From positions 1-35,474 of the forward strand of contig JAUXXQ010000155.1 of NCBI GenBank assembly GCA_030684815.1: DNA of 35,474 nt, written 5' to 3'. The notes under the pieces were generated by a model that worked only from the letters and a program-made list of their open reading frames with translations, ran no database searches and had not been told where the DNA came from. This stretch comes from Methylobacter sp. Lineage in GTDB: Bacteria; Pseudomonadota; Gammaproteobacteria; Methylococcales; Methylomonadaceae. The translations under genes and the position numbers were made by a program. Below are positions 1 through 34,649 of the stretch, in pieces (within the stretch, counting starts at the first letter, position 1; every line of letters begins with the position of its first letter).

Positions 1-335
1 AGTCATTCAAAAGTTTCTTAACAAACAAGTTGGGAGTAAAACAGCTTTAGCTGTTTTACCGCCAATAGCTAAAGCTATTGGACTCCAATGTAAATGTTAA
101 AAGAAATAGGCTTACCTACTTACCAGTGCTTTATCACTCAATGTTCAAGTTTTTAATTCTTGAGTTTAAAGAATCCTGATAAATCAGGTTCTGCAATTAT
201 TAAGAACTATTACCGGTTATCCAAATCTGTTGATGAACGCTAATCGCGACTATAGCCATAATAAATTGAACATCAATTATCAGTGATTATCCGTCTGATC
301 TGTTCTTTCCGTGTTCTATTTTTTTCACTGAGTAA
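1..335. repeat. Gene-free left edge with two tandem palindromes
   Basis: No credible gene is visible in this stretch. Two adjacent perfect palindromes stand out. The first has 10-base arms at 36-45 and 50-59 (GTAAAACAGC and GCTGTTTTAC). The second has 9-base arms at 62-70 and 73-81 (CCAATAGCT and AGCTATTGG). They share an AGCTTTAGCT-like core. Neither is followed by a clear T-tract, so they look more like a dispersed palindromic repeat than a standard terminator. From about 271 the DNA belongs to the MITE-2 family, listed separately. Confidence 0.5.
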
Positions 336-339
336 TTAC
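271..339 (+). repeat. MITE-2 copy 1 (right part)
   Basis: The segment ends GTGTTCTATTT...CACTGAGTAATTAC and matches the right ends near 8330, 12327 and 30680. No matching left terminus (GTAACTACTC) is seen upstream, so this is a partial copy. The last bases contain the TAA stop codon of the adjacent minus-strand GrpE-like gene. Confidence 0.6.
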
Positions 340-986
340 GTTATTAGTTTATTGACTTTGACTTCGGCTAGGCGCAGCACCTGATCGCCGAACAGAAAAC
401 CTTTGCGCAGTTCCTCAATGACGATGCCGTTATCGAGTTTGGCATCATGGGCGATTTCAACCGCCGTCATGGTATGCGGGTCGAGCATTTTGCCGGCACA
501 GTCTATCGGCACCACACGATGCCGCTGCAACAGTTGCTCAAAACGCCGTAGGGTCATGGATTGGCCTTGCTTAAAGGCGTCGATAAAATCGACGTCCTGT
601 TTTTTAGAATGGTTAAACAGCGAGGACACCGGATGATAGCTTTGCAATACGCCAAAACCTACGCTCAAGCGGTCATAAATATCGACCAGTTCCAACAATA
701 CAGCGCGCAAAATTTCATCACGCTGTTGTTGTAACTGTACCTGATGCCCGGCGAGCACATCGCTAAGCGCTTTGTTATCCGACTGAATGGCGCTGAGTGC
801 CTCGCCTAGCGTATCTAGCGTGGTTTTAAAATGCCGCGACTCGGCTTTGACTTCGGCTTTTAAACCGGCCATTTCGCCAAGCAAAGTCACCAAATCCGGT
901 GGCGCCTCGCCGTGCGCCTGCTCCAGATCGGTCTGTTCCAAATAGCTTTGGAACTCTTCCAGCAAGCGTTTTTTTGTATCACTCAT
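336..986 (-). CDS. GrpE-like nucleotide exchange factor of the alternative Hsp70 locus
   Basis: This 216-residue protein is probably the nucleotide exchange factor for the Hsp70-like protein encoded upstream, releasing ADP so that the chaperone can cycle. The N-terminal half is a long helical, charged stretch. The C-terminal part (about residues 165-210) has GrpE beta-domain features: a conserved HDAK-like turn, then VIEELRKGFLFGDQVLRLAEVKV, read here only as a family signature ending in a VxVNK-like strand. The chosen ATG at 986 lies 2 bases after the J-gene stop and has an AAGG ribosome site; an upstream ATG at 1004 would overlap the J gene. The stop codon lies in a MITE-2 terminus. It is divergent from housekeeping GrpE and is not linked to dnaK/dnaJ. 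Confidence 0.8.
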   Translation of the reverse strand: MSDTKKRLLEEFQSYLEQTDLEQAHGEAPPDLVTLLGEMAGLKAEVKAESRHFKTTLDTLGEALSAIQSDNKALSDVLAGHQVQLQQQRDEILRAVLLELVDIYDRLSVGFGVLQSYHPVSSLFNHSKKQDVDFIDAFKQGQSMTLRRFEQLLQRHRVVPIDCAGKMLDPHTMTAVEIAHDAKLDNGIVIEELRKGFLFGDQVLRLAEVKVNKLIT

Positions 987-988
987 TG

Positions 989-1327
989 TCAGGCCTTTAT
1001 CCATTCAGGCGCGGCGATGATGCATGTTTCATCATCAATGCTGGCGCACAATAATTTATTAAATTGCCCGGCGCTGACTGATGGCAAAGGCCCTGCACTA
1101 AAAGCATGGTCGAGCAGGCTATCAAAATCGGCTTCCGGCAGTGTAAACAACGCATAGCGGGTACGGCAGCCCAGGTCTTTAATGGTCTCATAAGCCAGCT
1201 GTATCTGCTGGAATTGCTCATGATAATGATCCGGCGGAAACTGCTTAACTTTTTGCAAATAAGCCTGTTTGATCTCGACATCGGTTGCCAGTTCGTCAAC
1301 ATCGAGAAGGGTGTAAGGAGTTTTCAT
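989..1327 (-). CDS. Small J-domain-like protein lacking the HPD histidine
   Basis: This is a 112-residue protein whose first 65 residues follow the J-domain pattern: helix I with YTLLDV, helix II with QAYLQKVKQF, then helix III with FQQIQLAYETIKD. J proteins normally stimulate Hsp70 ATPase through an invariant HPD loop. Here the loop reads F-P-P-D (residues 30-33), so the histidine is replaced by proline. The remaining 45 residues are unassigned. The ATG at 1327 is preferred over 1333 because AAGG sits nine bases upstream. The gene lies between the TPR and GrpE-like genes in the same orientation, with 2-base and 15-base gaps, so co-translation is likely. It may be a regulatory or partner-specific J-like protein. 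Confidence 0.75.
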   Translation of the reverse strand: MKTPYTLLDVDELATDVEIKQAYLQKVKQFPPDHYHEQFQQIQLAYETIKDLGCRTRYALFTLPEADFDSLLDHAFSAGPLPSVSAGQFNKLLCASIDDETCIIAAPEWIKA

Positions 1328-1342
1328 CAGCATTAACCTTGA

Positions 1343-3928
1343 TTAAAAAAATGGAAAAGGCGGCGTTTTCGCACTCGGTTCAAAACCGCACTCCTTAAGG
1401 ATTTTCTCGGCGGTAAGCCCAATATCTATGCCCAATTCATTAGCGGCATGTAACATTAAAATGCCAAATAATGCGTTCGGATTTAAAAAAAGATTAATGG
1501 CATCTACATTGGGTGGCAGTAATTTACCCAGTATTTTCATTGATTTTTCGGGCGAGTTTTTGCCCATAAAGTCCTCTATTCTTCGTTGCAATTTTTCGAT
1601 CAGGTCTGCAGGTAAATGGCCGAATAAATCCATCGGCGATTTGTCATACATATCAAAATCGTCTTCGTCTTCATCCTCGTATTCGTCATCAAAAAAACCG
1701 CCACCAAAGGCTTGCTGTGCTTGATAAGCGCTGTTAATAAATTTACTAATCAGCATCGCCGCACGATGATCGGATTGATCGGATTGATTGGTTTTTTTAA
1801 ACTGCTCTTCAAGCTGATAAATATTAAAACTTGAGCATTGCTCGGCTTCTCCATCGACTTCCGCGTAAATCTTATAAAACACCCAAATCGGCTTAGGCCA
1901 TTTGGGCAACGCAATTTTCACGCAATGGCGCAACAATTCAAAATGTCCGATGCTGTCTAAACATTCGCACAGTGTCAACATCAGCTCTTCTGCGTAATTT
2001 TGCTGTTTAACCGATTGTTTGAGTGCCGACTTTATTTTTTCCAGCGCCTTATGCAAGATTGCCTGACTGCTCTGCGCATCGCCTTGGTATTGCAAAATCA
2101 GCTGAACCAAGCGGCTTATTTCCTGAGCCGTCAATAGATGCTTTTTTTCCAGCGGCGGCAATTCTTTGATAATAGACGGTAGCGTCAAACCCAGCAGCAA
2201 GGCTTCCATGATCACGCAAAAATGTGTGCATACCGTGCCCTCACCCATGCTTTGTGCGCTGCTCACGATTTGCTGCAAGCCTTGTTGCTTATCTTCTGCC
2301 TGCATCACAAAAAAACCGCGTACCAGTTGCGCCTGGATTTGATAGCGTTTGCCGATCAGCAACTTTTCCGCCTGCTGAATTTCCTTGTCGACCAGATGGA
2401 ATTTTTTGGTTTTAATCAGTTTTCGCGCATGAGCCAAATGGCTGGTAAATAAAACCTGTTTGGCAAAGGTATTAACCGGGTCGATTGCCAATATCGCCTG
2501 TGCAGATTGGGTTGCCTTTTTAAAGGCTTTACTGGCGGTTGCCGCCTTAATCGCCAACGTCAAGAAATCAATATCCTGCGGAAATTTTTTAAGGCCTTGC
2601 TCCAGCCAATGCTTATGAACATCAGTTTGCCCCCCTTCATTGTCGCAATGCTGAAGAATACTTAAGTAGACGTCGCGGTCGGTCGGGTCATAATTCAAGC
2701 TATCTATCAGCCATTGCATGCCTTTTTTGGGCGTCTCTTGATATTTGGCGATATGGCGCATAATCAAGGCAATCTTAAATGCACCGGGTTCACCTTGTTT
2801 TTTCAGCAACGGAATGGCTTGTTTCCAATAATACTCAGCGCCATAATAATCACGCTGCTGTTCGCAATTTAATGCCTGCAAACGGAGCGGCTCAAACCCA
2901 TCCAATACGCCAAAGTGCTTGGTAAAATCACGCTGTCCGGCTTCGTATTTGACTAACCCCAGTGCGCAGTAAGCCTTAGTTGATTCCAATCCAAACAGCT
3001 CACGATATTGAATGGCGCAGTTAAACTTGATTTTGTCGGATAAATGCCCTTTTTGTTTAGCCAACAGCTCCAGCAGTTCCGCCTGTTTTTTACTGAATTT
3101 TTTGATGTCAACGACAATGTGCCGCTGTTTATAGTCGTATTGCAGCAGCTCATTGACCAGCGCCGCGCCGCTATATGTCGTTGCAAGCAATAAGGCGGCC
3201 GCTTGCTGATACGGGGAACTGGCGGGGATTTTTGCTAACAGCGCTTGCGCCTGTTCTGGCGATTTGGGCAAAATCAGCGCGGCCTTCAATAAGGTGCGGA
3301 AATCCCGGAACGCTGAGCGAAATGGCAGTTGTTTTAAAGCCTGCTCAATGTCTTCCATTTGGTCATGTTGATGAGCCCCAAATGCCGCCTTGACTTGCTC
3401 AATAATCGGCACATGGCTGATCTTTTGATAAGCTGCTAACGCCGACCTGACTAAACCTAAATGCGTTATGAAAACCGACTCTTTCGGCAGCAATGCCTCA
3501 AATTCTGGCTTTTCGCTAATAATCAGCAATCCCAACAAGCTGGCAAGATCAGGGTAAAGTTCGTCCAACTGCTGCGCCGATAACTGGCTTAAGCAGCTTT
3601 TAACCTTGACCATGTTATTGGTTTGCAACAGCCAACTGATATAAGAGTCATAACCTTGATACGGCGGCTGGGCATTTTGCGCATAATTTTCCCACAACAC
3701 CACTGCCTCTTTAAACATGCCCTTGTCTACAAACGACAGCGCCCGCTGGTAATAACAGAACGCCAAAGCCTGTTGCCAATTCTTATTGTCGCTCTGTTTT
3801 AACAACTGCTTATACAGTTCAATGGCCTCCTTATATTGCCCGGCTTCTTGCTTAGCCAGCGCCTGCGCAGCAACAGAAGCACTGTCGGCGTTTTCAAGCT
3901 TAGATTTGACGGGTATTTTTTTCTTCAT
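1343..3928 (-). CDS. Large TPR-repeat protein with acidic patch
   Basis: This 861-residue protein has no signal peptide or membrane segment. The first half shows tandem TPR-like helical pairs (for example GQYKEAIELYKQLLKQ near residue 35 and KGMFKEAVVLWENYAQ near 70), and further repeats appear around residues 350-500. A glycine and aspartate/glutamate run near residues 740-760 (GGGFFDDEYEDEDEDD) separates the helical array from a C-terminal region ending in PFPFF. TPR arrays usually bind peptide tails of partners, including Hsp70/Hsp90-type tails. It sits 32 bases after ubiX and 9 bases before the J-like gene, so it is probably part of the chaperone locus. I do not recognise a named family, and client binding is inferred. 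Confidence 0.7.
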   Translation of the reverse strand: MKKKIPVKSKLENADSASVAAQALAKQEAGQYKEAIELYKQLLKQSDNKNWQQALAFCYYQRALSFVDKGMFKEAVVLWENYAQNAQPPYQGYDSYISWLLQTNNMVKVKSCLSQLSAQQLDELYPDLASLLGLLIISEKPEFEALLPKESVFITHLGLVRSALAAYQKISHVPIIEQVKAAFGAHQHDQMEDIEQALKQLPFRSAFRDFRTLLKAALILPKSPEQAQALLAKIPASSPYQQAAALLLATTYSGAALVNELLQYDYKQRHIVVDIKKFSKKQAELLELLAKQKGHLSDKIKFNCAIQYRELFGLESTKAYCALGLVKYEAGQRDFTKHFGVLDGFEPLRLQALNCEQQRDYYGAEYYWKQAIPLLKKQGEPGAFKIALIMRHIAKYQETPKKGMQWLIDSLNYDPTDRDVYLSILQHCDNEGGQTDVHKHWLEQGLKKFPQDIDFLTLAIKAATASKAFKKATQSAQAILAIDPVNTFAKQVLFTSHLAHARKLIKTKKFHLVDKEIQQAEKLLIGKRYQIQAQLVRGFFVMQAEDKQQGLQQIVSSAQSMGEGTVCTHFCVIMEALLLGLTLPSIIKELPPLEKKHLLTAQEISRLVQLILQYQGDAQSSQAILHKALEKIKSALKQSVKQQNYAEELMLTLCECLDSIGHFELLRHCVKIALPKWPKPIWVFYKIYAEVDGEAEQCSSFNIYQLEEQFKKTNQSDQSDHRAAMLISKFINSAYQAQQAFGGGFFDDEYEDEDEDDFDMYDKSPMDLFGHLPADLIEKLQRRIEDFMGKNSPEKSMKILGKLLPPNVDAINLFLNPNALFGILMLHAANELGIDIGLTAEKILKECGFEPSAKTPPFPFF

Positions 3929-3960
3929 AACAAACAGTTTCCTGCGCTCAGTGTAAATAA

Positions 3961-4554
3961 TTAAGGTTTAGGCTGTTCCGACAGACCTTCCCAAGGCGTG
4001 TACAAGCCCTCGACATTGACCCCAAACATGTCCAAAACCCGGCCCACAGTTTCATCGACCATCGCCGCCACCGAATCCGATTTGCTGTAAAAAGCAGGCA
4101 TCGGCGGGAACATGATGCCGCCCATTTCGGTCACGCTCGCCATATTGCGGATATGTATCAGGTTTAACGGCGTTTCGCGGGGCATGACGACCAAACGGCG
4201 GCGTTCTTTTAACACTACATCGGCCGCACGCGAAATCAGGTTATCGCCAAAACCGTGCGCCACCGCCGATAAGGTTTTCATCGAACACGGCGCGATAATC
4301 ATGCCTTCGGTCTTGAAGCCGCCGCTGGAAATGCTCGCGGCAATGTCATCAATGCCGTGGGTGACATCGGCCAATGTTTTTAATTGCGCCCGGGTCATAT
4401 CCATTTCATGTTTTAAATTCACCAAACCTGCCGATGAAATCACCAAATGCGTTTCCCATTGTTCCTGCGCCTGCAAAACCTGCAGCATCCTGATGCCATA
4501 AACCGCGCCGGTCGCCCCGGTCATCGCGATGATCAAGCGTTTTTTTTGATTCAT
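3961..4554 (-). CDS. ubiX: Flavin prenyltransferase UbiX
   Basis: UbiX attaches a dimethylallyl group to FMN to make prenylated FMN, the cofactor of the UbiD decarboxylase in ubiquinone synthesis. The 197-residue product starts MNQKKRLIIAMTGATGAVYG, giving the FMN-binding glycine-rich N-terminus. It also contains ASISSGGFKTEGMIIAPCS, the RAADVVLKERR segment and RETPLNLIHIRNM, all hallmarks of the family. The frame stays open to 4662, but that extension is encoded by a repeat and is not conserved, so the ATG at 4554 is used. No clear ribosome site precedes it. UbiX has no known tie to chaperones, so its place between hsp70 and the TPR gene looks like an interruption of the locus or simple co-transcription. 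Confidence 0.93.
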   Translation of the reverse strand: MNQKKRLIIAMTGATGAVYGIRMLQVLQAQEQWETHLVISSAGLVNLKHEMDMTRAQLKTLADVTHGIDDIAASISSGGFKTEGMIIAPCSMKTLSAVAHGFGDNLISRAADVVLKERRRLVVMPRETPLNLIHIRNMASVTEMGGIMFPPMPAFYSKSDSVAAMVDETVGRVLDMFGVNVEGLYTPWEGLSEQPKP

Positions 4555-4572
4555 GTCTATTATTTTATATTG

Positions 4573-4790
4573 CACCACGAAGGACACGAAGAAAAACAAG
4601 CTAAGGCCATTTCCTGAAAAGAATAGTCCTAAATAATTGTCCACGAAAGGCACGAAAGCCACGAAAAAAACAAAATTTTCGTGGCTTTCGTGATAAGCGC
4701 GGACTCTAGTTTTCTACAGACCAAGATCATCTGGGGCATTCTTTCTCGGAAATCACCTAAAAATTTCGTACCCTTCGTGCCTTCGTGGTG
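4573..4790. repeat. Outer inverted repeat (CACCACGAAGG type) enclosing MITE-1 copy A
   Basis: Arms at 4573-4591 (CACCACGAAGGACACGAAG) and 4773-4790 (CTTCGTGCCTTCGTGGTG) are reverse complements with one extra base. They enclose a complete MITE-1 copy. The nesting suggests that an older palindromic repeat was split by the MITE insertion. Confidence 0.65.
4602..4760. mobile_element. MITE-1 copy A
   Basis: This non-coding element of about 159 bp has terminal inverted repeats TAAGGCCATTTCCTGAAAAG (left) and, reading inward from the right, TTAGGTGATTTCCGAGAAAG. An inner 17-base palindrome at 4651-4667/4676-4692 (CACGAAAGCCACGAAAA) would form a strong hairpin. It lies between the hsp70-like gene and ubiX. 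Outer bases are TA, suggesting TA target-site use as in IS630/Tc1-mariner-driven MITEs; that link is an inference. Confidence 0.75.
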
Positions 4791-4822
4791 ATATGTTTTA
4801 AATTAATCTGCGTTGAACGAGA

Positions 4823-6787
4823 TTACTCCCCTGCCCTGACATCAAACTCAATCTTCCAGCGGCCCTGATCTTTTTGCGATACCGCCTGCAATTCCAGTGT
4901 ACCGACTTCAGTGACGGCGGCGCACAAATGCACCGGCACTACTTCGCCGGGGCGGCGGCCTTCTTCCGGCAGGGTAATTTCAATCTCGTCCAGTTCGTCC
5001 AGTTCTTCGTCCGTCCAATAATCCAGCCGGGTGCCGACTTTATCTTCACGCCGGGTATTGGACGCGAAAAAACGAAAGCGCACCGGCTCGCCAATCACCA
5101 GACCAAATTCATCATCGGGCAATTCTTGCTGAGTGCCTTCTTCCATGCCGAACGGGGCAATGCACAAGGCTTGGATTTCCGGCGCCATGCCGGGTACGGC
5201 GGGCATCGCGCTTTCTATGCCGACATAATAAGAGGCAGCTGTGCCGCCTTTAATGCGCACACCTTTGCCTTTACGCACATAGCCATAATAGGCAGCGCCA
5301 CGGGCAACCGCCAAATCCAAATCGGCGCCAGCCAATAAGCGGGCATCGGGCGCTTGCTCGGCTCCCAACCATGAATTTAACGCCGCCATTAAACGCTCGG
5401 ACAAGGCGTCGGCTTTTAACACGCCACCGTTAAATAACACCGCCGAAGGATGCAAAAAAGTCGCATGTTCGGGCAGGTTAATGTCGTCAAGCTCATCAGT
5501 CGCGCCTTGCTGTTTCGACAAAAACGCCGCCAAATGGCGGGTAATGGCGGCATCCTGGGCATACGGCAAACCGGCGGTTCTCAAGCCGGTGCGCGGACGG
5601 CTGACCGGTTTGTCGCTGACTGACACTTTCGGCAAGAAACCTTCAACCAAGACGCGGTTGACTTCTTCGCGGGTCAATTCGCTGCGCAAAGTGCCGCCGA
5701 TTAACGACGATCCCCGGCTCGCAACCACCAGCGGAATGGTGTCTAGCTCGTTATTAGTAAACAGCTTTTCTTTGGCATCGCGGCAACTGTGGGTCAGTGC
5801 CTGAATCTGCCACGGCTCCAAACGCTTGCCGCCTTGTTCCAGCTTGGCTTTGACGGTATAGGCCAAGGCCAAGTCCATGTTGTCGCCGCCCAATAAAATA
5901 TGTTCGCCAACCGCAACGCGGGTCAGTTCGAGATTGCCGTCTTGCTGGGTGACCGCAATCAACGACAAATCGGTGGTGCCGCCGCCGACATCGATGACCA
6001 GGATAATATCGCCGACTTTGGCATCATTACGCCAATCGCCGTGGCTTTTTTCTATCCAGCTGTATAGCGCCGCTTGCGGTTCCTCCAGCAAAATGGCCTG
6101 CCCCAGACCGACAGCGCGCGCCGCTTCAACGGTCAATTCGCGTGCCGCCGGATCGAATGACGCCGGCACAGTAATGACCACGTCCTGTTCGGCTAACGGC
6201 GCATTCGGGTGGAGGCTTTTCCAGGCGTCGCACAGATGTTGCAAATAAGCGGTGGTGGCCTGAAATGGCGAAACGCGCTCGACTTCTTCAGGCGCTTCAG
6301 CCGGTAAAATAGGCGCTTTGCAATCGACACCGGCATGACATAACCAGCTTTTGGCGCTGGAAACCAGGCGTATCGGCGTTTTACTGCCCATATTGCGGGC
6401 GATTTCGCCGACCAGAAAATCCGGTTTTGCCGTCCAGGGTAAAGACGTCGAATCTGCCGCCAGTTCCGCTTCATGCGCTTGGTATAAAAACGATGGCAAT
6501 TGCTGTTTGTCCTCGACCGAACCGGGCGAAGTCAGTTGCGGTATCGCCATCACTTCCGGCGAAAAACCGTCATCATCGATATGGTCAAGGTCGGCGTAAG
6601 ACAGCACGCAATGCGTGGTGCCCAAATCGATGCCGACCGAAAAGCGTGTGCCCGATTGCGCGGGTTCAGCCGCAACCGTCTGCTCTGGCTGGGCTTCCTG
6701 CGGGGCTTCTTCCTGTTGATCTTTCGGCTCCTCTACTACGGCCACCTCTTCTTTCTTGGCTGATTGCAAACCAAATAAATCTTTCAT
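4823..6787 (-). CDS. Hsp70-family chaperone with acidic N-terminal tail and no lid
   Basis: This 654-residue protein is an Hsp70-type ATPase distinct from DnaK, HscA and HscC. Residues 1-48 are a Glu/Pro/Gln-rich tail absent from DnaK. The nucleotide-binding domain then starts with VGIDLGTTHC (phosphate 1, residues 51-60), carries VIDVGGGTTDLSL (phosphate 2, about 264-276), and has the late FNGGVLKAD and DLAVARGAAYYG motifs near 452-502. Only about 135 residues follow, mostly predicted beta strands, so the helical lid of DnaK is missing. The gene overlaps the DUF2760 gene by 4 bases, implying translational coupling. ATP binding is well supported by motifs; substrate and partners are unknown. 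Confidence 0.88.
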   Translation of the reverse strand: MKDLFGLQSAKKEEVAVVEEPKDQQEEAPQEAQPEQTVAAEPAQSGTRFSVGIDLGTTHCVLSYADLDHIDDDGFSPEVMAIPQLTSPGSVEDKQQLPSFLYQAHEAELAADSTSLPWTAKPDFLVGEIARNMGSKTPIRLVSSAKSWLCHAGVDCKAPILPAEAPEEVERVSPFQATTAYLQHLCDAWKSLHPNAPLAEQDVVITVPASFDPAARELTVEAARAVGLGQAILLEEPQAALYSWIEKSHGDWRNDAKVGDIILVIDVGGGTTDLSLIAVTQQDGNLELTRVAVGEHILLGGDNMDLALAYTVKAKLEQGGKRLEPWQIQALTHSCRDAKEKLFTNNELDTIPLVVASRGSSLIGGTLRSELTREEVNRVLVEGFLPKVSVSDKPVSRPRTGLRTAGLPYAQDAAITRHLAAFLSKQQGATDELDDINLPEHATFLHPSAVLFNGGVLKADALSERLMAALNSWLGAEQAPDARLLAGADLDLAVARGAAYYGYVRKGKGVRIKGGTAASYYVGIESAMPAVPGMAPEIQALCIAPFGMEEGTQQELPDDEFGLVIGEPVRFRFFASNTRREDKVGTRLDYWTDEELDELDEIEITLPEEGRRPGEVVPVHLCAAVTEVGTLELQAVSQKDQGRWKIEFDVRAGE

Positions 6788-7431
6788 AATTCCACCTCGG
6801 CTGGTGCCACAATTGCGGCATTATGCCCTGAAGTCAGTTTGGGCAATCTGATGCCGGTCACTTGCCAGCCCTTATGCACCAACGTGCCGGTGAACGGCGC
6901 TTGGCCAACGATGTTGCCGGTCAGGCGCACGGCCGCCGCGTCAAAACCCGCCAGCAAGGTAATTTTGCTGCCTTCGTGTTCGCTACGCACCGTCGCCAGC
7001 GTAAAATGTTCATCAAGCGCTTTTTTGCAACCTTCATGCACGACACGCGCCGCCACGCCAATATCGGCATCGCTGAACGCGGCAATATCTTCTTTAATAA
7101 AATCGATAAAGCGCGCTTCTTTTTGCAGCAAGCCCAGCAACTGTAAAGCCGCATCCGGCGTGGCCTCTTTTAACACCACCGGCTCCGGTGCCGGCGCCTG
7201 CACGATTTTTTCAACCTCGACAATTTTCTCGACGACTTTAATAATCGGCTCAGGCGCCGGTGCGGCAGGCTGAATGGCCGGTTTTTTCCGGCAACGCATC
7301 AGGCTAATCACCATGGTCAGCAACAGCACAATCAGCAGCAGCGACAACAGCGCGACCGTGCCCGCCAAACACACATGCCACAAATCGAACGTAGTCGGTT
7401 TTAAGGATAAATCAATTGCATAAGTATTCAT
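6784..7431 (-). CDS. DUF2760 membrane-anchored protein
   Basis: This 215-residue protein has one strong membrane segment (about residues 19-45, a leucine/valine/isoleucine run) followed by basic RCRKK, which predicts a cytoplasmic C-terminus. A Pro/Glu-rich linker (about 51-90) leads to a conserved globular domain (about 93-213) with ALQLLGLLQKEARFIDFI and VHKGWQVTGIRLP, which I recognise as the DUF2760 family. As I recall, DUF2760 genes are often next to Hsp70-like genes, and here they overlap. The simplest reading is a membrane anchor or adaptor that places the Hsp70-like ATPase at the inner membrane. No biochemical function is established that I know of. Confidence 0.8.
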   Translation of the reverse strand: MNTYAIDLSLKPTTFDLWHVCLAGTVALLSLLLIVLLLTMVISLMRCRKKPAIQPAAPAPEPIIKVVEKIVEVEKIVQAPAPEPVVLKEATPDAALQLLGLLQKEARFIDFIKEDIAAFSDADIGVAARVVHEGCKKALDEHFTLATVRSEHEGSKITLLAGFDAAAVRLTGNIVGQAPFTGTLVHKGWQVTGIRLPKLTSGHNAAIVAPAEVEL

Positions 7432-7450
7432 GTCAAAACTCTTTTAGTTA

Positions 7451-7828
7451 TTATTGGCCGGACTTACGTGCGGCTTCGTCAAACATCATGCTTTGCAGCA
7501 CATTACGGGTGGTTTGCATGCGCATCTGTTTTAAATGGCGGTCGGCGACAACTTCAGGCACTTTTTCCGCCAAATAAATATCACGCATCTTTGATAACAC
7601 CGCTTCACATTGTTTTATGATGGCCTCGGTTGCCTGACGGCTGCCCTGCCCGCGATAAACCGGCTTTTGCATTTCATCACTGACGCACTTTTTATATTGA
7701 TAGCCGCCGTCTTGAATTTTCTTAATAGTGGCATCGGATAAGGTGGTATTTTGCCATTCATTTTTGGCTTCATCGGCAAACGCTGCAGTGGCCGTTAATA
7801 AAACCGTTAACAAAAGAATTTTTTTCAT
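7451..7828 (-). CDS. Small secreted protein opening the chaperone operon
   Basis: This 125-residue protein has a clear Sec signal peptide: MKK, a hydrophobic ILLLTVLLTATAAFA core, and likely cleavage after the alanine at residue 18. The mature part is about 107 residues, helical and charged, with two cysteines (CVSDEM and QCEAVL) that could form a disulfide in the periplasm. I do not recognise the family. It is the first gene of the minus-strand series and lies 19 bases before the DUF2760 gene, so it is likely co-transcribed. A periplasmic partner or sensor for the membrane complex is a guess based only on context. Confidence 0.75.
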   Translation of the reverse strand: MKKILLLTVLLTATAAFADEAKNEWQNTTLSDATIKKIQDGGYQYKKCVSDEMQKPVYRGQGSRQATEAIIKQCEAVLSKMRDIYLAEKVPEVVADRHLKQMRMQTTRNVLQSMMFDEAARKSGQ

Positions 7829-31012: not shown

Positions 31013-32266
31013 TCAACTATAAACCGGGAACCGCGCACACAGGTTGCTGACTTTGTCGCGGACGGTGGCAATGACACTTTCGTCTTCGATGTTTTCCATC
31101 ACATCACACATCATGTGTGCAATATCAATCACTTCCGCTTCTTTAAAACCGCGCGTGGTGGGTGCTGGCGTGCCGACACGGATGCCGCTAGTCACAAACG
31201 GCGATTGCGGGTCGTTCGGCACGGCGTTTTTGTTGACGGTGATATGCGCTTTGCCTAAAGCTGCGTCGGCCGCTTTGCCGGTGATGCCCTTGGCAATCAA
31301 CGAAACCAGCATTAAATGGTCATCGGTGCCGCCGGAAACCACGTCGAAACCGCGTTTCATAAACACCGCAGCCATGGCTTGGGCGTTTTTAATAACTTGT
31401 TGCTGATAAGTGCGGAATTCAGGTTGCATGGCTTCTTTAAAGGCAACCGCTTTTGCCGCGATCACATGCATTAACGGGCCGCCCTGAATGCCGGGGAAGA
31501 TATTGGAGTCGAATTTTTTCTCCAGTTCCGGGTTGCTTTTGCACAAAATCAAGCCGCCGCGCGGGCCGCGCAAGGATTTGTGCGTGGTGCTGGTGACTAC
31601 GTCGGCAATAGGCACGGGATTGGGGTACAAACCGGCGGCAACAAGACCTGCAACATGCGCCATATCGACAAACAAATAAGCGCCCACAAGGTCTGCAATG
31701 TCGCGGAAGCGTTGCCAATCCCAGATACGCGAGTAGGCAGAAAAACCGGCGACGATGACTTTGGGCTTGTGTTCCAGCGCCAGCGCTTCAACTTGCGCAT
31801 AATCGATTTCGCCGGTTTCAGGGTGCAGGCCGTATTGGATGGCGTTATAGATTTTGCCTGAAAAGTTGGGTTTTGCGCCGTGGGTTAAATGGCCGCCATC
31901 GGCAAGGCTCAAGCCTAAAATGGTGTCGCCCGGTTGAATCAGGGCCATGAACACCGCCATGTTGGCTTGCGAACCCGAATGCGGTTGCACGTTGGCATAA
32001 TCGGCGCCGAACAGTTCTTTGGCACGGTCGATGGCCAATTGCTCGGCCTTATCGACGAATTCGCAGCCGCCGTAATAACGCTTGCCGGGGTAGCCTTCGG
32101 CGTACTTGTTGGTCAATTGCGAGCCTTGCGCTTCCATAACGCGTGGGCTGCAATAGTTTTCGGAAGCGATCAGTTCGATGTGGTCTTCCTGGCGTTGACG
32201 TTCTTGTTCAAGCGCCTGGAACAATTCATCGTCGAAACCTTGGATAGTCATTGATTTTTTAAACAT
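31013..32266 (-). CDS. glyA: Serine hydroxymethyltransferase
   Basis: GlyA interconverts serine and glycine using tetrahydrofolate. In serine-cycle methylotrophs it condenses glycine with methylene-H4F, the entry point of C1 units. The 417-residue product has the PLP lysine Lys230 in [14 protein letters not shown], the [19 protein letters not shown] start, [15 protein letters not shown] and [16 protein letters not shown]. The ATG at 32266 is used; another methionine (residue 6) is possible. It lies downstream of the glycerate kinase gene with a 165-base repeat-rich gap. Its neighbours, mtdA and gck, suggest it serves C1 assimilation, though it could also be the only housekeeping copy. Confidence 0.97.
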
Positions 32267-32289
32267 AGTGCTCTCTCCTGGATTAATAG

Positions 32290-32425
32290 TATTTAGTCGA
32301 TCTGATAGGACGCGGATAGTACAGATTAGACGGATTTACACGGATTTTTTAGGTTGCAGATTCCAAAATAATCCGCTTTATCCGTACCTATCAGTTAAAT
32401 CCGTGTCATCCGTGTTCCTTTTTAT
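32290..32425. repeat. Degenerate ATCCGTGT-type repeat between glyA and glycerate kinase
   Basis: Words such as GACGCGGATAG, ACGGATTTACACGGATTTTTT, AATCCGTGT and CATCCGTGTTC recur in both orientations. They resemble the interior of MITE-2 but lack its termini, so this is perhaps an older relative. No gene is seen in the gap, and the glyA promoter must lie here. Confidence 0.4.
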
Positions 32426-32431
32426 TCAAAG

Positions 32432-33760
32432 TTATGGCCGAATCAACAAGATTTGCAAATCGGCGACATTGGTGCCGGTTGCGCCGGTCATTACTAAGTC
32501 GCCGGATGCTGTTAACGCGCTGTAAGAATCGTTATTTTTAAGTAGTTCAGTTGGATTGATACCCGCTTGCTTCATGCGTTTTAGCGTATTGGGATCAACG
32601 ATGCCGCCGGCCGCATCGGTGGGGCCGTCGCGGCCATCGGTGCCGCCGCTTAGAAATACCCAGTCACCGCTTAAGCCCTGTTGTTCAGCGGCAATCGCAA
32701 ACGCCAGCGCCATTTCCTGATTGCGTCCGCCGCACCCGTTGCCGTTTAAGGTTACCGTGGTTTCGCCGCCTGCCAGTAAAGCTAGCGGCTTATTGACGGG
32801 CAACGCTTTGGCGTAACTAAGCCATTTTTCGGCTTCTGCTCTGGCCTCGCCGGTTAAATGCTCGCTGTACAAATTTGTTTCGTAACCTAATTTTCGGGCG
32901 GCTTCCAGCATTGCGTTGACGCTGATGGTGTTGCTGCCGACCAAGGTATGTCCTGTGGCTTTAAAAATGTCGTCGCCGGGCTTGGGCGTTTCGGCGATAG
33001 CGCCCAGCTGGCCTTGTTGCAGGTGTTGCCTGACGGTGTCCGGCACTTGCTGCCAAATGCCTTTGGCTTGTAAAACGCCAATTGCATCGGCGTAAGTCGT
33101 ATCGTCGGCTATGGTCGGGCCGCTGGCAATGGCGCTTAAATCGTCGCCTACAGGACGTAGGCGAGGGGCGTGAGCAGGAGCGGAAGCTTCGCCTAATACG
33201 TCGGATAAAATGAACGCGTGTAAATGGGCGGGAGCCGCAAGCTTAGCCAAACCACCGCCTTTGAGGTGCGATAAATGTTTGCGCACACAGTTAATCTGGT
33301 TAATGGTCGCGCCTGAGGCCAGCAGCAAATCGGTGGTGGCTATTTTTTCCTGCAGGCTGATTTGGCCGGCAGGATAGGGAATGAGCGCCGAACCGCCGCC
33401 ACTAACCAACACTAAAACCAGTTCATTTTGTTGTGCCAGTTGCACCCGTTCGGCAATCCGTTGCGCCGCTTCCAATCCGGCGGCATCGGGCAAGGGATGC
33501 CCTGCGCCGATGACATCAACATTATCGACGTTAGTTACATTTTCATAATTGGTAATGGCTATGCCTTTGCCCGCGAGCTTGTCGGCCGGAATCATGTCTT
33601 GCGCCGCTTGTGCCATGGCGCAAGCGGCTTTGCCGAATGCGATCAGGTGAACTTTTGCATAACCGTCGAACAGCGCTGGCTCAAGATGGCGCTTAACTGC
33701 CCGATACGGGTCGGCAGCCGCTATGCCTGCCTGAAAAATGCTGAGGGCGTCTTGTCTCAT
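32432..33760 (-). CDS. gck: Glycerate 2-kinase (MOFRL family)
   Basis: This enzyme phosphorylates glycerate to 2-phosphoglycerate, which in the serine cycle feeds carbon toward phosphoenolpyruvate. The 442-residue product (start at the second of two adjacent methionines, 33760) has the GckA/TtuD two-domain layout. The N-terminal domain contains LIAFGKAACAMAQAAQ, VSGGGSALIPYPAG and GATINQINCVRKHLSHLKGGGLA; the C-terminal MOFRL domain carries LLAGGETTVTLNGNGCGGRNQEMALA and FLSGGTDGRDGPTDAAGG. It lies 31 bases after mtdA in the same direction. The pathway assignment rests on the neighbouring glyA and mtdA. Confidence 0.92.
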   Translation of the reverse strand: MRQDALSIFQAGIAAADPYRAVKRHLEPALFDGYAKVHLIAFGKAACAMAQAAQDMIPADKLAGKGIAITNYENVTNVDNVDVIGAGHPLPDAAGLEAAQRIAERVQLAQQNELVLVLVSGGGSALIPYPAGQISLQEKIATTDLLLASGATINQINCVRKHLSHLKGGGLAKLAAPAHLHAFILSDVLGEASAPAHAPRLRPVGDDLSAIASGPTIADDTTYADAIGVLQAKGIWQQVPDTVRQHLQQGQLGAIAETPKPGDDIFKATGHTLVGSNTISVNAMLEAARKLGYETNLYSEHLTGEARAEAEKWLSYAKALPVNKPLALLAGGETTVTLNGNGCGGRNQEMALAFAIAAEQQGLSGDWVFLSGGTDGRDGPTDAAGGIVDPNTLKRMKQAGINPTELLKNNDSYSALTASGDLVMTGATGTNVADLQILLIRP

Positions 33761-33791
33761 CAAGGCTCCAATAGCCCAATGTTACGGCGGT

Positions 33792-34649
33792 TCAGGCCAT
33801 GTCCTTGGCCAACGCAAAGATGTTTTCGGCATCAAAAACCTGTTTGTTATCTTCAAACAATTTGGCGATACAGGCGCGGTGCAAGGCCAATTTTAACGAG
33901 CCGAAACCGATAGCGCCCCAGATAATTTTGCCGCTGCGCAAATTGCCTTTGTCCATCACGTCGGTGCCGCCGATACCGAGAGGCGGCGTGGCGTTGGCGT
34001 CGGCCATCATTTCAATGTGGCTGTTGTGTTGCCATTGTTCGGCGCTAAGCAGTTCTATGCCGGCCGCGCCGGTGGCGAAAACGATGTGGGCGTGTTCAAT
34101 GGCTTTGGCGCGCGCCGCGTTATCGACCGCTTCAACCGGAGTCAGTTCTACACCAAAACGTGCTTTCATATTGTTGCAGGCATGAATGACGCGCTCTATT
34201 TTGCGCCCGGTGATGGACACTTCCGCGCCTTCCATCGCCAGCATGGCGGCGGCGCGCTGACCGACCGGGCCGGTGCCGGCAAGCACGACGGCGTTTTTAC
34301 CGGCCAAAGTGCTGCTTGAGGCCATTTTGGCAACAGCGGCGGCGGCGGTAGTGTTGCTGCCGTTGCTGTCGAGCATCACCGACACTTGAAAGCCGGGGAA
34401 AAAATGTTTTTGCACCGCAATAAATAAGGCTTGCCCTGCCACCATATCACTGCCGCCGACAAAAATGGCGGTATTTTTTTTATCCTTGGGCGCACGGGTA
34501 AATATGGTGCCTTCTACCAAAGCGGTAATATTTTCCGGTGTTAATCCGCCATGCCCGATGACATGATCGGCGCCGCCATCATAGGCGACAACGGTATCGA
34601 AAACTGAGGGGTGCATGTCGGTATCAAATTGGAACAACAGTTTTTTCAT
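33792..34649 (-). CDS. mtdA: NADP-dependent methylene-H4F/H4MPT dehydrogenase MtdA
   Basis: MtdA oxidises or reduces methylene-tetrahydrofolate (and methylene-tetrahydromethanopterin) with NADP(H), linking formaldehyde or formate metabolism to assimilation in methylotrophs. The 285-residue product closely follows the MtdA pattern: KKLLFQFDTDMHPSVFDTVVAYDGGADHV, MLDSNGSNTTAAAAV, the Rossmann turn VVLAGTGPVGQRAAAML, PPLGIGGTDVMDKG and the end KLALHRACIAKLFE...IFALAKDMA. The homologous MtdB is a possible confusion, but the length and motifs favour MtdA. It is the first gene of the mtdA-gck-glyA set, and its promoter lies in 34650-34740. Confidence 0.9.
   Translation of the reverse strand: MKKLLFQFDTDMHPSVFDTVVAYDGGADHVIGHGGLTPENITALVEGTIFTRAPKDKKNTAIFVGGSDMVAGQALFIAVQKHFFPGFQVSVMLDSNGSNTTAAAAVAKMASSSTLAGKNAVVLAGTGPVGQRAAAMLAMEGAEVSITGRKIERVIHACNNMKARFGVELTPVEAVDNAARAKAIEHAHIVFATGAAGIELLSAEQWQHNSHIEMMADANATPPLGIGGTDVMDKGNLRSGKIIWGAIGFGSLKLALHRACIAKLFEDNKQVFDAENIFALAKDMA

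Follow-up and report, generated by a model that had tools for sequence, protein, structure and literature searches.

Among the described systems closest to the locus treated here are DnaK-DnaJ-GrpE and HscC with DjlB/DjlC. The locus lies in a 35,474-nucleotide stretch of Methylobacter sp. DNA (contig JAUXXQ010000155.1 of assembly GCA_030684815.1; hereafter the window), corresponding to contig C39 of a genome (G000) of 4.29 Mb and 99% completeness. Seven of its genes, running on the minus strand from 7828 to 336, encode a small protein termed SECR, a DUF2760 protein, a lidless Hsp70 (Hsp70S), the flavin prenyltransferase UbiX, a tetratricopeptide repeat (TPR) protein, a J-like protein and a GrpE-like protein. 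SECR, DUF2760, Hsp70S and a second Hsp70, Hsp70L, are referred to as module A, and the TPR, J-like and GrpE proteins together with a further Hsp70 (Hsp70B) and a zinc-ribbon-like protein as module B. The component families of both modules are already known.

Hsp70B is DnaK-like, agreeing with Escherichia coli DnaK at 39.8% over 507 columns, and resembles the DnaK-DnaJ-GrpE system in having the linker, the J-contact residues, the GrpE loop and a GrpE of its own, whereas the J protein of module B is without the His-Pro-Asp (HPD) motif, TPR and zinc-ribbon-like genes are added, DnaK residues 76-101 are missing and the end of the chaperone is shortened. HscC, as described in PMC8215388, has likewise lost DnaK 76-101 and carries an insertion in loop one of its substrate domain, and Hsp70B shows both features. 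In contrast to E. coli HscC with its DjlB and DjlC partners, however, Hsp70B has a GrpE loop of undiminished length (six rows) and a GrpE gene in its cassette, is accompanied by a J protein with PPD or PPE and not HPE, and stands closer to DnaK than to HscC (39.8% versus 33.2%). The J-like protein shares with the type IV pseudo-J-domain proteins (pseudo-JDPs) Pam16 and DNAJB13 a clear J domain in which HPD is non-conservatively replaced, as defined in PMC13254874, but it is bacterial, stands alone and is linked through its gene neighbourhood to an Hsp70 and a GrpE dedicated to it. Shewanella AtcJABC likewise includes a short J protein within its own operon; there, as reported in PMC6715715, the AtcJ domain is functional and works with DnaK, and the operon partners are AtcA, AtcB and AtcC. 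A second DnaK with its own GrpE is encoded by the Myxococcus GrpE-DnaK2 bicistron (MXAN_6672-6671), although none of the 15 predicted J proteins is described as adjoining the dnaK genes (PMC11019930). The Nostoc DnaK1/DnaJ3/GrpE system is another specialised Hsp70 system next to grpE, linked in that case to type IV pilus motors, but dnaK1 lies between grpE and dnaJ11, the working partner is given as DnaJ3 and there is one GrpE per cell (PMC9239167); HPD is not mentioned in that account. Module A is a plain member of the DUF2760 (PF10816)/DUF3731 (PF12531) Hsp70 cluster, except that Hsp70L of the source genome (921 residues, with a DUF3731 C-terminus) lies on another contig, C87. In the open-licence literature, no paper was found on DUF2760 or DUF3731, nor, from titles and abstract openings, one describing the five-gene cassette of module B, which is no proof of absence.

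Evidence for two Hsp70 modules

A sequence-only reading of the window had taken six same-strand genes as one alternative, possibly membrane-tethered Hsp70 machine, in which the TPR, J-like and GrpE-like proteins complete the cycle of the DUF2760-linked Hsp70. The present analysis suggests instead that the stretch probably comprises a pair of Hsp70 modules that are independent of each other and flank ubiX, and that the J-like/GrpE cycle runs on Hsp70B. The open reading frames (ORFs) at the positions given by that reading were recovered on the minus strand, with matches to PF01025, PF00226, TPR_19, PF00012 and PF10816, as were the 4-base overlap of DUF2760 and Hsp70S (6784-6787) and the packing of the TPR, J-like and GrpE-like genes within 15 bases of each other (15 bases between TPR and J-like and 2 between J-like and GrpE when the starts of relatives are used). 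The single strand stands, but the genes number seven, ubiX having been overlooked. Nor are all parts of an Hsp70 cycle present, since the contig ends 335 bases past GrpE and the next cassette genes lie on another contig.

Relatives of the TPR protein occur in 30 of the 61 genomes of the family Methylomonadaceae, and a profile search detected them in 27 of 398 phylum genomes, 26 of which belong outside the class of Methylobacter. In all 28 family loci fetched, the TPR, J-like and GrpE genes lie together; an Hsp70B of about 580 residues is found downstream of GrpE in 27 (the exception being L096, with one intervening ORF in L078), followed in 24 by a zinc-ribbon-like gene of about 130 codons. 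Among named genomes, some of which also contribute family loci, the complete cassette TPR-J-GrpE-Hsp70B-zinc-ribbon-like is present in that order at 52 of 63 loci, with median gaps of 9, -4, 9 and -1 bases. The 11 incomplete loci comprise five whose contigs end in or just after Hsp70B, four whose contigs end in TPR and two without Hsp70B, both of which carry a shortened TPR. The module thus defined has an Hsp70 of its own at 57 of the 63 named loci and, in other families, at 12 of 19 loci, these 12 having all five genes and the remainder TPR and J-like only (four) or TPR only (three); the claim that module B completes the cycle of the DUF2760-linked Hsp70 is not borne out by these counts. In the flanks of 20 module-B loci, no cluster besides the five cassette families reached three or more loci. 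The zinc-ribbon-like protein has two CxxC pairs and falls below the cut-offs of Zn_ribbon_3 (14.7 bits, cut-off 27) and TPR_14 (19 bits, cut-off 23.5).

The two modules often occur one without the other in family and phylum genomes. Where 4.5 kb or more of sequence upstream of TPR is available (44 named loci), DUF2760 was found there in 3; it was found at none of the 28 family loci, several of which have little upstream sequence, and DUF2760 and TPR co-occur in 5 of the 398 phylum genomes. Two genomes of the same genus (G015 and G042) carry SECR-DUF2760-Hsp70S-ubiX without a TPR match, the genes past ubiX differing between the two. In G023, both modules lie on one contig about 14 kb apart. The rarity of upstream DUF2760 and of co-occurrence indicates that the row module A-ubiX-module B reflects a local gene order in one group of Methylobacter and is not the conserved unit proposed for the six genes; by comparison of loci, modules A and B are separate conserved units.

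Hsp70B of the source genome is very likely cut off from the window by the contig end. An Hsp70B of 583 residues and a zinc-ribbon-like gene stand at the end of contig C15 of the same genome, and the last 141 bases of C15 are identical to window positions 1-141. The full row SECR-DUF2760-Hsp70S-ubiX-TPR-J-GrpE-Hsp70B-zinc-ribbon-like is unbroken in Methylobacter sp. E2_concoct.bin.55 (L136) and Methylobacter sp. E6_concoct.bin.28 (L145), and L143 has the same order from SECR to TPR, within which its contig ends. The C39-C15 join is preferred because of this synteny and because C11, the other contig ending in these 141 bases, carries unrelated genes at its end. The Hsp70 on C15 was also considered as HscA, which alignment and gene order ruled out in favour of the module-B Hsp70. 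The case serves as a caution that a contig end cutting through a gene order may lead to the wrong Hsp70 being credited with a J protein and GrpE.

The residues by which DnaK receives its J protein give the same assignment. In the complex described in PMC8215388, His33 of DnaJ binds the linker at L391, Pro34 contacts P419 and Asp35 binds R167 and Q378. In Hsp70B, Arg167, Asn170, Thr173 and Asp393 are retained in 21/21 rows, and the six rows compared at Gln378 and Pro419 have both, so that the set marking a DnaK-type, J-regulated chaperone (Arg167, Asn170, Thr173, Gln378 and the linker residue Asp393) is present. Hsp70S is without most of it: Arg stands at position 167 in 2 of 40 rows, position 170 is Glu in all 40 and never Asn, and position 173 is Gln in 38 and Leu in two and never Thr; in the four rows compared, the VLLLDVTP linker is replaced by a YYVGIES-type sequence, and D393 and Q378 are absent. 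The lid of DnaK-type chaperones is missing from Hsp70S as well. Hsp70L is without Asn170, Thr173 and the canonical linker (four rows). Because of the contact residues and the gene order, the J-like and GrpE proteins are assigned to Hsp70B, which most likely is the chaperone they serve.

Several observations weigh against this picture. The pairing is drawn from gene order and residues only, Pro419 is retained by Hsp70S in 4/4 rows, and Hsp70L has Arg167 in 3/4 rows, leaving room for J binding on both. Seven of the 19 module-B loci in other families have no GrpE or Hsp70B next to TPR, and modules A and B do adjoin in one Methylobacter group. The end of C11 has the same 141 bases as that of C15, so the join is not unique, and the first 122 of these bases belong to a repeat with at least 40 copies in the genome.

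A few loci depart from the cassette. In L194, L195 and L096, from a methane-oxidising endosymbiont of Gigantopelta and a related metagenome-assembled genome (MAG), TPR has about 480 residues and Hsp70B was not found alongside; this shortened module B looks like decay, L096 and L194 being possibly one genome. One genome (G097) has two TPR loci (L125 and L126), one a full cassette and one a TPR gene with a PQE J-like domain without a GrpE or Hsp70B match. Two Hsp70 matches were discarded: the Hsp70B match in L134 reads by eye as an MreB-like protein, and the Hsp70 match on C51 (a 360-residue frame), considered as a system component, is MreB.

The DUF2760-Hsp70S module

DUF2760 is present in 57 of the 61 family genomes and 28 of the 398 phylum genomes. 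With a limit of E <= 1e-60, chosen to exclude DnaK, the Hsp70S profile matched exactly the same 28 phylum genomes and no others, and in all 28 the two genes are neighbours on one strand, at most 520 bases apart by their coordinates. DUF2760 and Hsp70S are therefore a conserved unit. Of the co-occurrence that the sequence-only reading had named as a check on its proposal, the part concerning Hsp70 is confirmed by these genomes, whereas the part concerning the TPR set fails on the counts given above.

The DUF2760 gene (6784-7431, minus strand; PF10816 E 4.7e-54, 181.9 bits against a cut-off of 25) encodes a protein made up of one hydrophobic helix, a flexible part and a domain of alpha/beta type. 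Its model has a mean predicted local distance difference test score (pLDDT) of 79.7 and a predicted template modelling score (pTM) of 0.52, with the helix at residues 17-47, and Foldseek against the PDB gave no match (best E 1.5). A strongly hydrophobic 19-residue stretch was found in 18/18 family rows, and DUF2760 is likely an inner-membrane anchor with its domain in the cytoplasm, as the positive-inside rule would have it. Linkage of Hsp70S to the membrane through this helix is plausible. Within the family, the helix is in keeping with the membrane tether proposed earlier; in other families the stretch reaches the threshold in 5 of 15 rows and the other ten fall under it, which speaks against a general anchor and indicates that the tether is either not general or made otherwise there. 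Upstream of DUF2760 stands SECR (7451-7828, minus strand; 125 residues, a signal-peptide-like start and two cysteines in the alignment), the first gene of module A in 19/19 family loci (L038-L056), which was undetected in 20 DUF2760 loci from other families.

Hsp70S (4823-6787, minus strand; 654 residues, PF00012 E 5e-18) was modelled from 40 sequences with a pLDDT of 81.1 and a pTM of 0.78, as an ATPase domain and a beta substrate domain. Both alignment and model end at the beta domain, in agreement with the earlier remark that this Hsp70 has no alpha-helical lid. The nearest PDB structures are DnaK entries, the top one a truncated form (7kru, E 2.6e-28). In one genome (G121; C53:3192-5039), the Hsp70S frame contains a single internal TAA stop.

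Hsp70L was found within the fetched stretch at 7 of the 19 family loci. In other families DUF2760, Hsp70S and Hsp70L are all present in 20/20 loci, and no other neighbour recurs in more than seven of them. Hsp70S and Hsp70L might pair in the manner of Hsp110 or Ssz1, one of them acting without cycling, as a nucleotide exchange factor or scaffold. The genes are contiguous in 19 of these 20 loci, in a tree of 26 Hsp70s the two form one clade (100/100) apart from DnaK, HscA, HscC and Hsp70B, a tree that carries a long-branch warning, and neither retains N170, T173 or the canonical linker in the rows compared; the catalytic residues D8, T11, K70, E171, D194, T199 and D201 are nevertheless retained in 4/4 rows of each, and a non-cycling partner is on balance doubtful. 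In a Methyloprofundus MAG (L162:11918-14485), Hsp70L adjoins module B in the opposite orientation, a contact that may be due to chance or meaningful.

The J-like protein without HPD

The histidine of HPD is considered indispensable for J-domain action. The J-like protein of the window (989-1327, minus strand; 112 residues, the ORF being open from 1333 and the start taken from relatives) is nonetheless a J domain both by profile (PF00226, E 7.1e-10, 39.3 bits against a cut-off of 27.8) and by PDB sequence matches, and it reads PPD in place of HPD, the absence of which the sequence-only reading had observed. His33 was found in none of 82 distinct J-like ORFs, where the position is occupied by Pro in 76 and Ser in six; the motifs at the HPD site are PPD (59), PPE (15), PPA (1), PQE (1), SPD (2), SPE (1) and SKA or SKT (3), and PP is present at this site in 27/27 aligned J-like sequences. 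Position 35 keeps Asp or Glu in 78 of the 82, and Lys26 is replaced by Leu in 78. None of the 82 ORFs was excluded; they include the PQE protein of L125, a genuine J-like domain behind an over-long start, and L120, L121 and L124 (family f61). The J-like proteins of these last three are without even the Pro (SKT/SKA), have no GrpE or Hsp70B match alongside and represent a further degenerate form.

When the J-like gene of the window is compared with its counterparts in L136 and L145, the ratio of nonsynonymous to synonymous substitution rates (dN/dS) comes to 0.177 and 0.185, which indicates that the gene is maintained under purifying selection and is not decaying; the corresponding values for DUF2760, Hsp70S and Hsp70B are 0.04-0.07. 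J domains without an intact HPD have been termed type IV or pseudo-JDPs, HPE alone being seemingly tolerated (PMC13254874), and the J-like protein, with its J domain and non-conservatively replaced HPD, belongs with them. Whether changes to HPD are accidental or selected is regarded as enigmatic in the same 2026 review (PMC13254874). It also mentions a de-novo J analogue without HPD that is able to stimulate Hsp70 (PMC13254874), so that loss of the histidine need not equal loss of stimulation, a point that tells against a purely recruiting role. The J family described here is bacterial, has no such His in 82/82 ORFs, is under purifying selection and mostly stands beside its own Hsp70 and GrpE, which makes it a testable pseudo-J case. 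Cultured strains such as Methylotuvimicrobium buryatense 5G (L172) and Methylomonas sp. LW13 (L185) are among those with this arrangement, so that the pseudo-J question can be addressed with simple knock-outs and a small set of purified components.

It is tentatively proposed, as one possible reading, that module B is wired through an obligate His-less J protein that would recruit and orient Hsp70B via Pro34 and Asp35, the trigger coming from TPR, the client or another factor, so that recruitment and ATPase stimulation would be split between proteins. The J-like protein could alternatively act as an inhibitor in the manner of Pam16, occupying the J site of Hsp70B or pairing with a true J protein and keeping ATP hydrolysis low until release. 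The uniform absence of His33 and the Lys26-to-Leu change would fit such a role, and Pam16 and pseudo-JDPs feature as competitors in the review (PMC13254874); retention of Asp/Glu at position 35 argues the other way, and a search limited to matches of the J-like profile revealed no further J gene in the cassette. An inhibitor appears unlikely.

Proposed action of the modules

From the gene sets and residues, we infer the following partnerships and actions. In module B, Hsp70B would go through a cycle driven by ATP, its own GrpE serving as exchange factor, while the TPR protein would hold the client. The Pro and the Asp/Glu of the J-like protein, both mostly retained, would contact the beta domain and Arg167/Gln378 of Hsp70B, respectively. 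As the His that fixes the linker is missing, the J-like protein may serve recruitment of Hsp70B to the client more than triggering of hydrolysis, and the trigger could possibly be supplied by the HPD-bearing DnaJ of the cell or by the client. In module A, DUF2760 would keep Hsp70S, lidless and independent of J proteins, at the inner membrane, where the chaperone would hold client segments in an ATP-gated manner, perhaps partnered by Hsp70L in the way of an Hsp110.

Where they adjoin, the two machines might cooperate on a single transcript of the Methylobacter group, with Hsp70B passing clients to a membrane station of DUF2760 and Hsp70S. That three further genomes share the gene order of the window is in keeping with this, as are dN/dS values of 0.04 to 0.30 across all nine genes, but the modules are separated by ubiX and by a 268-base gap with inverted repeats, Hsp70L is located elsewhere in the source genome, and phylum genomes with both DUF2760 and TPR are scarce; such a relay is improbable. 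That the six genes form one inner-membrane machine, with J-like and GrpE serving the DUF2760-linked Hsp70, has in its favour the shared strand, the tight spacing and the A-ubiX-B order in L136 and L145 (up to TPR in L143), yet it is highly improbable given that module B nearly always has its own Hsp70, that 41 of the 44 named loci with sufficient upstream sequence have no DUF2760 there, that G015 and G042 carry module A and ubiX without a TPR match, and that most J-contact residues are gone from Hsp70S.

Layout of the window and neighbouring genes

Under the preferred reading of two independent modules, module B begins with the TPR gene (1343-3928, minus strand), which encodes 861 residues with a single N-terminal TPR_19 stretch above the cut-off (E 3.1e-7); the nearest named relatives of the protein are from Methylobacter and other Methylococcales. 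The GrpE-like gene (336-986, minus strand; 216 residues, PF01025 E 1.2e-21, 77.6 bits against a cut-off of 25.8) is open from 1004, and its start was taken from relatives. Beyond it, positions 1-141 form the contig end within the dispersed repeat, identical to the ends of C15 and C11; the repeat unit of about 122 bases holds internal inverted repeats (30-86). Canonical DnaK is encoded elsewhere in the genome, on contig C99, along with an HPD-bearing DnaJ and a second GrpE match.

The ubiX gene (3961-4554, minus strand; NF004685, 271 bits against a cut-off of 188) has an ORF open from 4662, the start of relatives being at 4554. It also follows Hsp70S in L098 and L099 of the same genus and in L136, L143 and L145; among the family loci L038-L056, the remaining 18 have no ubiX match within the sequence fetched (L051 being the genome of L098). 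The gap between Hsp70S and ubiX (4555-4822) contains, within 4647-4783, a perfect 17-bp hairpin at 4651-4692 and a wider 20-bp inverted pair, and it is shorter in L098 and L099. The genome also encodes what we take, by eye from the ORF, to be a XoxF-type pyrroloquinoline quinone (PQQ) dehydrogenase; together with the nearest named TPR relatives, this points to a methanotroph of the Methylococcales as the likely source. At 31013-34649 of the window, genes were read by eye as serine hydroxymethyltransferase, glycerate kinase and a methylene-tetrahydromethanopterin dehydrogenase, which fits one-carbon metabolism.

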